DNA of 43,203 nucleotides. Origin: Myxococcota bacterium (GTDB taxonomy: Bacteria; Myxococcota_A; UBA9160; SMWR01). Positions 40,451 through 43,203 of this stretch are shown piece after piece. The notes beneath the pieces are model-generated. The model ran no database searches. It saw nothing but the letters and a program-made list of their open reading frames with translations, and had not been told where the DNA came from. Each line of letters begins with the position of its first letter. Position 1 is the first letter of the stretch. The translations under genes were made by a program, and so were the position numbers. The stretch covers positions 1 through 43,203 of the forward strand of contig JBCCEW010000009.1 in assembly GCA_039030075.1 (NCBI GenBank), written 5' to 3'.

Positions 40451-40483
40451 TCCCCGTTGCCCCGAGGGGTGCCCGATCGGGGA
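40451..40483 (+). terminator. Possible hairpin after the acyl-CoA dehydrogenase pair
   Basis: TCCCCG (40451-40456) can pair with CGGGGA (40478-40483), with additional G/C pairing inside. It begins right after the stop codon. No T-tract is visible. Confidence 0.25.
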
Positions 40484-40491
40484 ACCGAGTC

Positions 40492-40516
40492 GTATAGTGG
40501 CAAGATGCCACTATAC
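40492..40516. promoter_or_regulatory. Perfect 11-bp inverted repeat, candidate autoregulatory operator
   Basis: GTATAGTGGCA (40492-40502), AGA spacer, TGCCACTATAC (40506-40516). The right arm runs into TATACT (40512-40517), a good -10 candidate that would place the transcript start near 40524, just before the ATG at 40538. Protein bound here would block transcription of the two-gene unit downstream. Confidence 0.65.
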
Positions 40517-40537
40517 TGCGCTAGGCTCTCCCGGAGC

Positions 40538-41047
40538 ATGGCCTACGTCTACGCACGCAAGACCGGCCGGGTGGAGATCCGCGAGGCGCGGGTCACGCCG
40601 CGCGGCCCGCGTTCCCGGACCCTGGTGAGCTTCCAGGGCCCGCTGACCGAGGCCCACCTCGAGCGCGCCGACGCCGCATCCGCCCAGGGCATCGATCGGG
40701 CGGCGTTGCGGCAGCGGGCGCTGGAGCTGGGTGTCCCGGTCGCGCCCGACGTCGTGGAGGCGCCGGCCCGGGATCTGCTCGCCGGCCTGCGCCGCGGAGC
40801 CCGCCTCGATTCGCACACGGCGACGCTGCTGCGCGAGGCGCTGGCTCCGCATGCGTCCGAGGCGCTGCCCGACGCGCTGTCCGACGTGGCCGAGTGGGTC
40901 GGCGCGAGCGACGCCGAACGCGGGCGCGCGCTGCGTGAGGTGCTGCGGCTCTACGACACCATCGTGCGTTCCCGGGAACCCGTGCCGACGCCCGACACCG
41001 CGCGCTTCCCCCACTTCGACCTGTTGCCGCTACCGAAAGCGTCTTAG
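40538..41047 (+). CDS. Protein of unknown function upstream of a nucleotidyltransferase; candidate antitoxin/regulator
   Basis: This is a 169-residue soluble protein with no signal peptide. It opens MAYVYARKTGRVEIREARVT, a basic beta-rich segment, continues PRGPRSRTLVSFQGPLT, and is helical and acidic afterwards. I recognise no named domain. The start is not certain. The ATG at 40538 lies just downstream of a perfect inverted repeat and has only a poorly spaced GGAG. An ATG at 40505 lies inside the repeat and has no ribosome site. The gene is 14 bases from the nucleotidyltransferase. Small-gene pairing with a nucleotidyltransferase plus a palindromic operator suggests a type II or type IV toxin-antitoxin-like unit. 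This role is inferred from context only. Confidence 0.7.
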   Translation: MAYVYARKTGRVEIREARVTPRGPRSRTLVSFQGPLTEAHLERADAASAQGIDRAALRQRALELGVPVAPDVVEAPARDLLAGLRRGARLDSHTATLLREALAPHASEALPDALSDVAEWVGASDAERGRALREVLRLYDTIVRSREPVPTPDTARFPHFDLLPLPKAS

Positions 41048-41061
41048 CACGCCCAGGACCG

Positions 41062-41619
41062 ATGCACCTCGACGAGAAAGTCGCTGCGATCCACCAGGCG
41101 CTCGCCGCGGCCGACGTGCCCCATGCCTTCGGCGGCGCGATTGCACTCGCCTACTACGCCACCCCGCGCGGCACCCAGGACGTCGACATCAACGTCTTCC
41201 TGCCGGTCCGCGACTTCGACCGCGTCCTCGCGGCCCTCGAACCGCTCGGTGTGACACCGCCCGACGCGACCCAGCGGCGCACCGTCGAGCGCGACGAGCA
41301 GGTGCGACTGTTCTGGCAACACACCCCGCTCGATCTGTTCTTCTCCTACAACGCCCTGCACGACGCCTGCCTCGAGCGACGTCGCCGGGTGGCCTTCGGT
41401 TCCGACCGGATCGAGATCCTCGCTGCGGAAGACCTGGCGATCTTCAAGGTGCTGTTTGCCCGCGACAAGGACTGGCGGGACCTCGCCGAGCTGCTCTTCG
41501 CCCAGGCCGATCGCTTCGACGTGACCTACGCCCGGGAGTGGCTGGCGCGCATCCTCGCCCCGGAAGACGAGCGCGGACGGCGCTTCGCGGACCTGCTCGT
41601 CGAGCGCGGGCTCGCCTGA
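41062..41619 (+). CDS. Nucleotidyltransferase-fold protein (MNT/AbiEii-like), candidate toxin
   Basis: This 185-residue protein has an N-terminal nucleotidyltransferase signature: FGGAIALAYYATPRGTQDVD (GG at 24-25, metal-binding Asp40 and Asp42), then strands and helices ending in a helical region (EDLAIFKVLFARDKDWRDLA). The KxxxxRxKDxxDL-type motif near the end is common in AbiEii/MNT-type proteins and related stand-alone nucleotidyltransferases. Many members are the toxin half of toxin-antitoxin pairs, while others are minor tRNA- or protein-modifying enzymes. AGGA precedes the ATG by a few bases. The start is 14 bases after the unknown gene, consistent with co-transcription from the inverted-repeat promoter. 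Confidence 0.82.
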   Translation: MHLDEKVAAIHQALAAADVPHAFGGAIALAYYATPRGTQDVDINVFLPVRDFDRVLAALEPLGVTPPDATQRRTVERDEQVRLFWQHTPLDLFFSYNALHDACLERRRRVAFGSDRIEILAAEDLAIFKVLFARDKDWRDLAELLFAQADRFDVTYAREWLARILAPEDERGRRFADLLVERGLA

Positions 41620-41718
41620 GCCGTCCCCCGGTCGCCCGTCCGAACGCGGCGAGGTCTCCCACTCTCCCCGTCGGCCGGGAAGGGCCCAGCGAAGGACCCT
41701 CCGGGCCGTGGCCGTCCC

Positions 41719-41747
41719 TTGCTCGAGCCTATACCGATCGGTATATT
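41719..41747 (+). promoter_or_regulatory. Promoter of the hydrolase-TetR operon
   Basis: TTGCTC (41719-41724) and TATATT (41742-41747) are 17 bases apart. The -10 box matches 5/6 and overlaps the right end of the first palindrome. Repressor binding would exclude RNA polymerase. Confidence 0.5.
41730..41745. promoter_or_regulatory. TetR-type operator 1 (palindrome)
   Basis: TATACCGATCGGTATA is a perfect 16-bp palindrome centred between 41737 and 41738. It shares the core TACCGATCGGTA with a second palindrome 22 bp downstream. A TetR gene closes the operon. Confidence 0.75.
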
Positions 41748-41771
41748 CGCCTGTACCGATCGGTACAGGCG
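41748..41771. promoter_or_regulatory. TetR-type operator 2 (palindrome)
   Basis: This is a perfect 24-bp palindrome with the core GTACCGATCGGTAC, centred between 41759 and 41760. It is exactly 22 bp (two helical turns) from operator 1, so both sites face the same side of the DNA and could bind two dimers cooperatively. Confidence 0.75.
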
Positions 41772-41831
41772 CGCCCGCCGGCGACCGATCCATCCGGGAG
41801 CGCCCTGTCTCCCGGCCCGAGAGGATCCTCC

Positions 41832-42674
41832 ATGACCACCGCCACCCTGGCTCCCGGCTCGCGCCACGAAATCCGCATCCGCGCTCCGCGCATCGATTAC
41901 GACGACGTGCCTGCGCACTGGCTGGCCGACAACGCGATCGCCACCCAGATCTTCAACGGCCTCAACCTGGTCTTCCCCGACGGCGAGCGCTTCTTCATCG
42001 ACTCCGTGCGCGATCACCTCGATGACATCGAGGATCCGAAGCTCCGCGACCAGGTGCGCGGCTTCTTCGGTCAGGAAGGGCGTCACGCACACGAACACGA
42101 GCGCTACTTCGAGGCGATGGAGGCTCAGGGCTACGAGATCCGCCCCTTCCTGCGCCGCTTCGAACGCTTCACGAAGTGGACCACGCGCTGGTTGCCGCGG
42201 GGACTGCGCCTCGCCATGACCGCAGGCGCCGAGCACTACACCGCGACGCTGGGCGCGATGGCCTTCGAGAACCCCCTGCTGGATCGCGCGCACCCGGCCA
42301 TGCGGCGTCTGGCGATCTGGCACGCCACCGAGGAAGTGGAGCACAAGGCCGTCGCCTTCGACGTGCTTCAGGCCACGCATCCGAGCTACGCCCTGCGCAT
42401 TCTGGGATTCGTCCTGGCAACCCTCGAGGTTCTCGCTTGGAGCGGCGCAGGGACACGCATGCTGCTGCGCCAGGATCGCGATGCGGGCCGCGTCGATGCG
42501 CAGGGTCTGGCTGCGGCGCGCGAGGAACTCCAGGAGCTGCACAAGTGGCAGGCGCGCCGGCTCAAGGCCGCGATGCGCGCCTACCTGCGCCGCGACTTCC
42601 ACCCGAACGACACCGACGAGCTCGCCCTGGCTCACGAGAAGCTCGTCGAGGTCGGACTCCAGGCCACGGCGTGA
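41832..42674 (+). CDS. Predicted metal-dependent hydrolase (PF10118-like)
   Basis: This 280-residue soluble helical protein is rich in conserved His/Glu pairs: FFGQEGRHAHEHERY, then AGAEHYTATLGAMAF, then WHATEEVEHKAVAFDVL. These are the presumed di-metal ligands of the PF10118 family, whose members are annotated only as predicted metal-dependent hydrolases. The ATG at 41832 has GAGAGGA upstream. The stop codon overlaps the GTG of the TetR gene, so the two are translationally coupled. Two palindromic operators upstream indicate that the TetR protein controls this operon. The substrate and the inducer are unknown, and a lipid or acyl compound would fit the neighbourhood. Confidence 0.87.
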   Translation: MTTATLAPGSRHEIRIRAPRIDYDDVPAHWLADNAIATQIFNGLNLVFPDGERFFIDSVRDHLDDIEDPKLRDQVRGFFGQEGRHAHEHERYFEAMEAQGYEIRPFLRRFERFTKWTTRWLPRGLRLAMTAGAEHYTATLGAMAFENPLLDRAHPAMRRLAIWHATEEVEHKAVAFDVLQATHPSYALRILGFVLATLEVLAWSGAGTRMLLRQDRDAGRVDAQGLAAAREELQELHKWQARRLKAAMRAYLRRDFHPNDTDELALAHEKLVEVGLQATA

Positions 42675-43203
42675 CACCGGCCCAGCGCAAACGGGTAGCC
42701 GCGCGCGAGACGCCGGGGGGCCGCGAGCGTCTGCTCGAGGCGGCGACGGCGCTCTTCGCCGAGCGGGGCTACGCGGCGACGGGCATCGCCGAGCTGTGTC
42801 GCGAGGCCGGCGTGGCGAAGCCGGCCCTGTACTGGCACTTCGAGAGCAAGGAAGGCCTACTCGGTGCCGTCATCGAGCGCGTGGGTTCCCAGTGGATCGA
42901 GCGCTTGCAGAAGGTGGTCTATCTCGAAGGTCACCCGCTGCAGCGGATCCAGCGGCTCGTCACCGAATGGCGCACGATCCTGCTCGAGCAGCCCGAGCTG
43001 ATGCGGCTGCCCTTGATCGCCCAGCTCGAGCAGGGCGACTCGGATCGCGCGCGGGCGGCGCTGCGCAAGATCTGGTCGCGGGGCGACGCGGCGCTGATCC
43101 AGGGCATCGAAGACACGCTCGGCGTCCAGATCCAGGGCGTCGATCTGCTCGCCCAGACCATCCTCGACCTGCTCCAGGGCGCGGCTTTGCGCCAGATGGC
43201 CGA
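42671..43203 (+). CDS. TetR-family transcriptional regulator (3' end outside window)
   Basis: The open frame continues to the window edge, showing 177 residues. A GTG at 42671 overlaps the hydrolase stop (GTGA). After a basic N-terminal arm, residues 17-64 form the TetR helix-turn-helix domain (RERLLEAATALFAERGYAAT, then GIAELCREAGVAKPALYWHF). The helical ligand-binding domain follows and is incomplete. It most likely represses its own operon by binding the two TACCGATCGGTA palindromes upstream of the hydrolase gene. The ligand is unknown. Confidence 0.92.
   Translation, partial: MTPAQRKRVAARETPGGRERLLEAATALFAERGYAATGIAELCREAGVAKPALYWHFESKEGLLGAVIERVGSQWIERLQKVVYLEGHPLQRIQRLVTEWRTILLEQPELMRLPLIAQLEQGDSDRARAALRKIWSRGDAALIQGIEDTLGVQIQGVDLLAQTILDLLQGAALRQMA

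Follow-up and report, generated by a model that had tools for sequence, protein, structure and literature searches.

Tandem palindromes at the promoter of a PF10118–tetR operon in a Myxococcota bacterium as probable operators of the operon's own TetR

Introduction

The 43,203-nucleotide stretch of Myxococcota DNA analysed here (hereafter the window) ends in a gene for a PF10118 protein followed directly by a gene for a TetR-type regulator, and two palindromes, here called O1 and O2, lie ahead of them. The question raised by this locus is whether the palindromes are operators of the regulator encoded in the same operon, and whether the distance between them matters. Tandem-operator autorepression by a TetR is known from Tn10, in which two palindromes, tetO1 and tetO2, are found at the promoter of the regulated and the regulator genes. 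The Tn10 genes are divergent, whereas the window holds a single operon with the regulator downstream.

Palindromes and promoter

Both palindromes are perfect (Table 1) and share the core TACCGATCGGTA, which occupies positions 41732-41743 in O1 and 41754-41765 in O2. Their centres, at 41737.5 and 41759.5, are 22 bp apart, and the window sequence thus bears out the two perfect palindromes of identical core, with centres 22 bp apart, that a sequence-only reading of this DNA had described. The same reading had placed a −10 box between the operator centres, and the hexamer TATATT is indeed found there, overlapping O1. TTGCTC and TATATT plausibly form a weak promoter, as judged from sequence, with transcription predicted to start at about 41754. 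A stricter scan of positions 41620-41850, requiring at least four of six matches in each hexamer, found no promoter, and the −35 is therefore to be regarded as weak and the start point as unproven.

Table 1. Coordinates of the features at the PF10118–tetR promoter and operon (positions of the window).
Feature	Position	Strand	Basis and remarks
−35-like hexamer TTGCTC	41719..41724	+	3 of 6 to consensus; spacer of 17 to the −10; missed by the stricter scan
−10-like hexamer TATATT	41742..41747	+	5 of 6 to consensus; overlaps the right edge of O1, between the operator centres
Operator O1 (putative)	41730..41745	.	Sequence; perfect 16-bp palindrome TATACCGATCGGTATA; relatives keep it ahead of the same gene
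Operator O2 (putative)	41748..41771	.	Sequence; perfect 24-bp palindrome CGCCTGTACCGATCGGTACAGGCG, over the predicted start point
PF10118 'Metal_hydrol' gene	41832..42674	+	280 aa; probable ferritin-like diiron protein; Pfam 9.6e-74
TetR gene	42671..43203, continuing past the window to contig position 43312	+	GTG start; TetR_N

Palindromes as such were rejected as evidence, since shuffled sequence yields about as many: perfect palindromes of at least 14 bp number 13 in the window, which is 71% GC, against a mean of 11.9 in 60 dinucleotide shuffles, and those of at least 16 bp average 3.5 per shuffle. This abundance in a GC-rich window is what would favour taking O1 and O2 for an RNA hairpin, a terminator or a product of chance. 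However, a scan found no terminator-like site, 10 genomes retain the letters of the palindromes and not just their complementarity, and the joint presence of site and TetR in the order genomes and named loci described below makes such an origin still harder to accept, so that we consider it extremely improbable. Within the window, TACCGATCGGTA occurs six times at up to two mismatches (two of them exact) against 0.73 expected, and none of 100 shuffles reaches six.

A genome-wide search for the core, which the sequence-only reading had suggested as a route to the regulon, returned no further exact site: TACCGATCGGTA is present exactly twice in the whole 5,758,225-base genome, both times at this promoter, and only O1 and O2 match the 16-mer within two mismatches. 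Four 12-mers with one mismatch are found elsewhere in the genome, all inside open frames of more than 200 aa; judged by codon-position GC, three (L008, L009, L011) resemble ordinary coding sequence, and the fourth (L010) falls close to where its frame opens. A wider regulon in this genome was considered and rejected, as the 16-mer at up to three mismatches finds nine places and the reversed control also finds nine.

Another inverted repeat, GTATAGTGGCA-AGA-TGCCACTATAC, is seen at window positions 40492-40516, near the beginning of an open frame (40457-41047) without a Pfam hit. The next frame (41062-41619) is nucleotidyltransferase-like (PF14907, 6e-7, slightly below cut-off), and the two frames are perhaps a self-regulated gene pair.

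The two gene products

The GTG start of the TetR gene overlaps the stop of the PF10118 gene (GTGA, 42671-42674). Its product carries the TetR_N helix-turn-helix domain (PF00440, 9.5e-20, 70.6 bits against a cut-off of 24), and its model has a regular all-helical TetR fold (pLDDT 85.8). Two marks of TetR family membership, the helix-turn-helix domain and a putative palindromic operator near the promoter of its own operon, are found here. The closest solved TetR by profile is Mycobacterium Rv0302 (5d18, 4e-32), and Mycobacterium Rv0078 (5wm9, 6c31) is among the closest by fold to the model; these proteins are 26-28% identical to the window TetR, and a literature search found no operator sequence for Rv0302 or Rv0078. 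The profile also matches 3vpr, which we take to be the solved structure of Thermus thermophilus PfmR, at 1.3e-16, far below the top hits and under many other TetR chains.

The target gene encodes a PF10118 Metal_hydrol protein (248.6 bits against a cut-off of 33.2), and the sequence-only reading had accordingly called it a hydrolase. That label does not hold up well, resting as it does on the Pfam name, whereas the invariant residues and the model resemble the diiron fold of AurF, CmlI and R2. Across 52 sequences E52, E82xxH85, E134 and E168xxH171 do not vary, giving the Glu plus ExxH pattern of AurF/CmlI/R2-like ferritin-fold diiron proteins, and we infer that E52, E82, H85, E134, E168 and H171 are metal ligands. 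The model (pLDDT 95.5) matches CmlI with a VIA Z of 13.3 and AurF with 12.7, values that helical bundles can also reach (about 13), and the 50 matches listed are all R2, R2-like oxidases, AurF or CmlI, with VIA Z of 11 to 13. Foldseek gave a probability of 1.00 with a best E of 0.076, and the Pfam AurF match to the protein (1.3e-4) is below its cut-off. On this modelling the target is probably a ferritin-like diiron protein, or diiron or Mn/Fe oxidase-like, and the family name 'predicted metal-dependent hydrolase' is probably misleading.

Co-occurrence of site and regulator in relatives

Relatives were sampled as 79 genomes of the order, the window's own included, in which a protein matching at E up to 1e-60 was counted as the clade hydrolase (the term follows the family name). 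It is encoded in 10 of the 79; one genome of the same genus (G001) is without it, and the operon is therefore patchy. An operator-like site of the TGTACCGATCGGTACA type lies upstream of the gene in all ten, about 30 to 100 bp before its start, matching the 12-mer core exactly in seven, with one mismatch in two (G064, G008) and with two in one (G018, TACCATTCGGTA). These ten promoters together hold 18 sites, and A4, C5 and T13 of the 16-mer are kept in every one. A TetR gene comes next after the clade hydrolase in eight of the ten; in G041 and G064 the contigs end first, and in G041 a TetR is found at the end of another contig (L022).

The same association is seen among 80 hydrolase loci from named genomes, six of which (L049, L050, L051, L056, L057, L058) have an orthologous TetR. 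When a site was scored as present at up to one mismatch within 220 bp upstream, it was found at all six of these and at both loci cut by a contig end (L053, L059), and at none of the 72 others, which are not independent (many are from Acinetobacter and Alcanivorax) and include a few that end soon past the gene (e.g. L069, L071), where the absence of a TetR is uncertain. The co-occurrence depends on this cut-off, as at two mismatches the TetR-less loci L052, L054 and L103 show a site too, and the order and named-locus tests overlap in genomes (e.g. L049 is G065 and L050 is G047).

The motif is also found upstream of TetR orthologues that have no hydrolase in the examined stretch (L028, L031 and L032 with CGTACCGATCGTTACA; L035 with TGTACCAATCGGTACA), which indicates that it follows the regulator. 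No clear copy was seen upstream of the orthologues L025, L026, L033 and L034 or of the more distant L036-L038, and L027 has only a partial copy. Across the 79 genomes of the order the exact core occurs at 18 sites (reversed control, 3), ten of them elsewhere than at the clade hydrolase; eight of these ten were examined, mostly over 1.5 kb on either side (less for L150), and no TetR of the window family was found there. In 32 of the 72 loci without an orthologous TetR, a TetR-like frame of more remote similarity (E 5e-16 to 4e-4) is present somewhere, and the pairing of PF10118 with TetR may be wider than the window clade. Among L061-L128, such frames run divergently to the hydrolase gene in several Myxococcota loci and follow it in Acinetobacter.

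The proposal of the sequence-only reading, that the two sites serve the operon's own TetR as operators across its promoter, is thus supported by the co-occurrence of site and regulator across relatives. A different TetR-type regulator of the cell could in principle use O1 and O2 in place of the cotranscribed one, given that the genome has many TetR genes (51 scored matches to the window TetR) and that further TetR subgroups share the core within different flanks (L013, L014, L016-L018). Yet site presence tracks the cotranscribed TetR across loci and the exact core is at no second promoter of the genome, and we regard control by another regulator as very unlikely.

Relation to known TetR operators

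The core has precedents among other TetR proteins. PfmR of Thermus thermophilus (TTHB023, TetR family), as described in excerpts of PMC7022988, has CTGACCGATCGGTCAG as its best in-vitro site (KD about 2 nM), has two promoters with two sites each, its own included, and regulates genes that include those of fatty-acid biosynthesis. Judged by the same excerpts, the 10-bp core ACCGATCGGT is identical in the PfmR site and in the window operators, which differ in their outer bases (CTG...CAG in PfmR, TGT...ACA in the window). In Burkholderia cenocepacia, the TetR-type PaaR depends for repression in reporter tests on the inverted repeat ACCGACCGGTCGGT, placed between −35 and −10 (PMC2770484, excerpts). 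This operator is a close variant of the window core, but PaaR, so far as the excerpted text goes, has one overlapping repeat per promoter and governs phenylacetate genes, whereas the window has two separate palindromes and an unrelated operon.

The PaaR repeat, described in that source as dual and overlapping like that of QacR, also lends some colour to the idea that O1 and O2 form one composite operator for a dimer of dimers, as do the half-overlapping sites in three relatives with 14-bp spacing (G038, G064, G008) and the dimer of dimers that CprB forms on a 22-bp site (PMC4150764, excerpts). According to the latter source, two dimers fill the promoter cooperatively in both QacR and CprB, each on one longer operator (28 bp and 22 bp, respectively). 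The window instead has two complete perfect palindromes of at least 16 bp with no overlap between their 16-mers, an arrangement that fits the single-dimer class, whose operators measure 15-17 bp according to the same excerpts, and one long operator with overlapping dimer sites, as in the QacR/CprB class, is not seen in the window. We therefore think a composite operator unlikely here.

Tandem sites with this core are found beside other TetR genes as well. In the order, members of another TetR group (L013, L014, L016, L017, L018) have tandem CCGACCGATCGGTCGG-type sites beside their own gene, 31, 36 or 39 bp apart, with the same core as the window and different flanks and spacing, and elsewhere in the phylum pairs with flanks of the TTGACC/GGTCAA type adjoin TetR genes (L174, L176). 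Two genomes of one genus, G338 and G270 (L171, L178, L179), have seven and four tandem ACCGATCGGT pairs, which among those listed are 21 bp apart except for one at 34; no TetR of the window family was found in the examined stretch of these loci, and the pairs may be a repeated element or a multi-promoter regulon. As tandem TetR operators with the ACCGATCGGT core are recurrent, the window find belongs to an already known theme. In a literature search the 10-mer core was met in published papers, PMC7022988 among them, and the exact 12-mer TACCGATCGGTA and a direct precedent for a PF10118–TetR operon were not found.

Spacing of the operators

With 10.5 bp to the turn, a separation of 22 bp amounts to 2.10 turns, which leaves the sites about 34 degrees out of phase on B-DNA, and the claim in the sequence-only reading of exactly two helical turns has to be given up. 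The spacing also varies: among the ten order genomes it is 22 bp in the window genome (G000), G065, G041 and G044, 23 bp in G047, and 14 bp in G038, G064 and G008, and G018 and G049 have a single clear site. Whole helical turns are therefore not kept across the ten genomes with the clade hydrolase, and the family can do without phasing of exactly two turns. At 14 bp the two sites are turned by about 120 degrees on B-DNA, a spacing that would need another geometry than 22 bp.

Autorepression could be accompanied by strong cooperativity, in which two dimers on nearly the same face of the DNA touch and bind together, as the sequence-only reading had suggested. The angle of about 34 degrees left by the 22-bp spacing would allow this, and the spacing is kept in G000, G065, G041 and G044 even though the letters of the 10-bp gaps between the 12-mers have diverged (3 to 8 of 10 shared pairwise). 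Against this stand the relatives with 23 bp, 14 bp or one clear site, and a tree of the hydrolase (26 rows), in which the three rows with 14-bp spacing are monophyletic (100/100) and all but one of the five with 22 or 23 bp cluster together (86/90). This grouping suggests that the 22-bp layout was probably inherited and kept, and did not evolve repeatedly, so that repeated selection for it need not be invoked; the need to hold the −10 between the operators would fix the spacing too. Strong cooperativity is accordingly a possibility that we rate at somewhat under even odds.

The position of the promoter in relatives points to what is retained. In G047, G065 and G041 the centre of O1 is followed after 11-12 bp by a −10-like hexamer (after 7 bp in the window); in G038 and G008 such a hexamer precedes the first operator centre by 8 bp. 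The single operator of G018 contains TTGACT-16-TACCAT, and no convincing promoter could be placed in G044, G064 and G049. These positions indicate that the kept feature of the 22/23-bp class is a pair of operators straddling the −10. We would tentatively propose, as a conjecture that is rather doubtful at present, that this TetR subfamily has switched between two layouts with its operator sequence kept: a separate pair at 22-23 bp straddling the −10, and a half-overlapping pair at 14 bp downstream of it.

In a scan of the phylum, two exact 10-mers together were found in 14 of 377 genomes (reversed control, 1). The 15 such loci examined besides the window have centre spacings of 13, 21 (three times), 23, 24, 26, 31 (three times), 32, 34, 36 and 39 bp (twice); a TetR-like frame is present in the examined stretch of nine, about 1 kb off in one of them, and among the 15 no preference for whole turns can be defended.

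Proposed mechanism

The reading we prefer, to which we give a probability of about 0.83, is an autoregulated two-gene operon, in which the operon's own TetR would repress through O1 and O2 and be released by a ligand. It builds on the two sites and their placement at promoter-like hexamers, on the overlapping genes and on the site-regulator co-occurrence, all of them features of the sequences compared here. The TetR made from the second gene would bind each palindrome (consensus TGTACCGATCGGTACA) as a dimer. With O1 filled, which lies between −35 and −10 and overlaps the latter, the −35/−10 region would be blocked, and with O2 filled the predicted start would be blocked as well. When both are occupied the −10 would be boxed in and RNA polymerase excluded, so that little of either the diiron-like enzyme or the repressor would be made until, as we presume, a small ligand frees TetR.

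Significance

An uncharacterised TetR subfamily of uncultured bacteria hereby gains a DNA motif, a target and a promoter layout, and the PF10118 proteins, though named hydrolases, are suggested to be diiron oxidase-like. The relatives of the window provide natural spacing variants that bear on whether tandem TetR operators need helical phasing. If the switch of layout is true, they would represent a natural series from separate-dimer to dimer-of-dimers repression, acting on the promoter of a diiron enzyme not described before.
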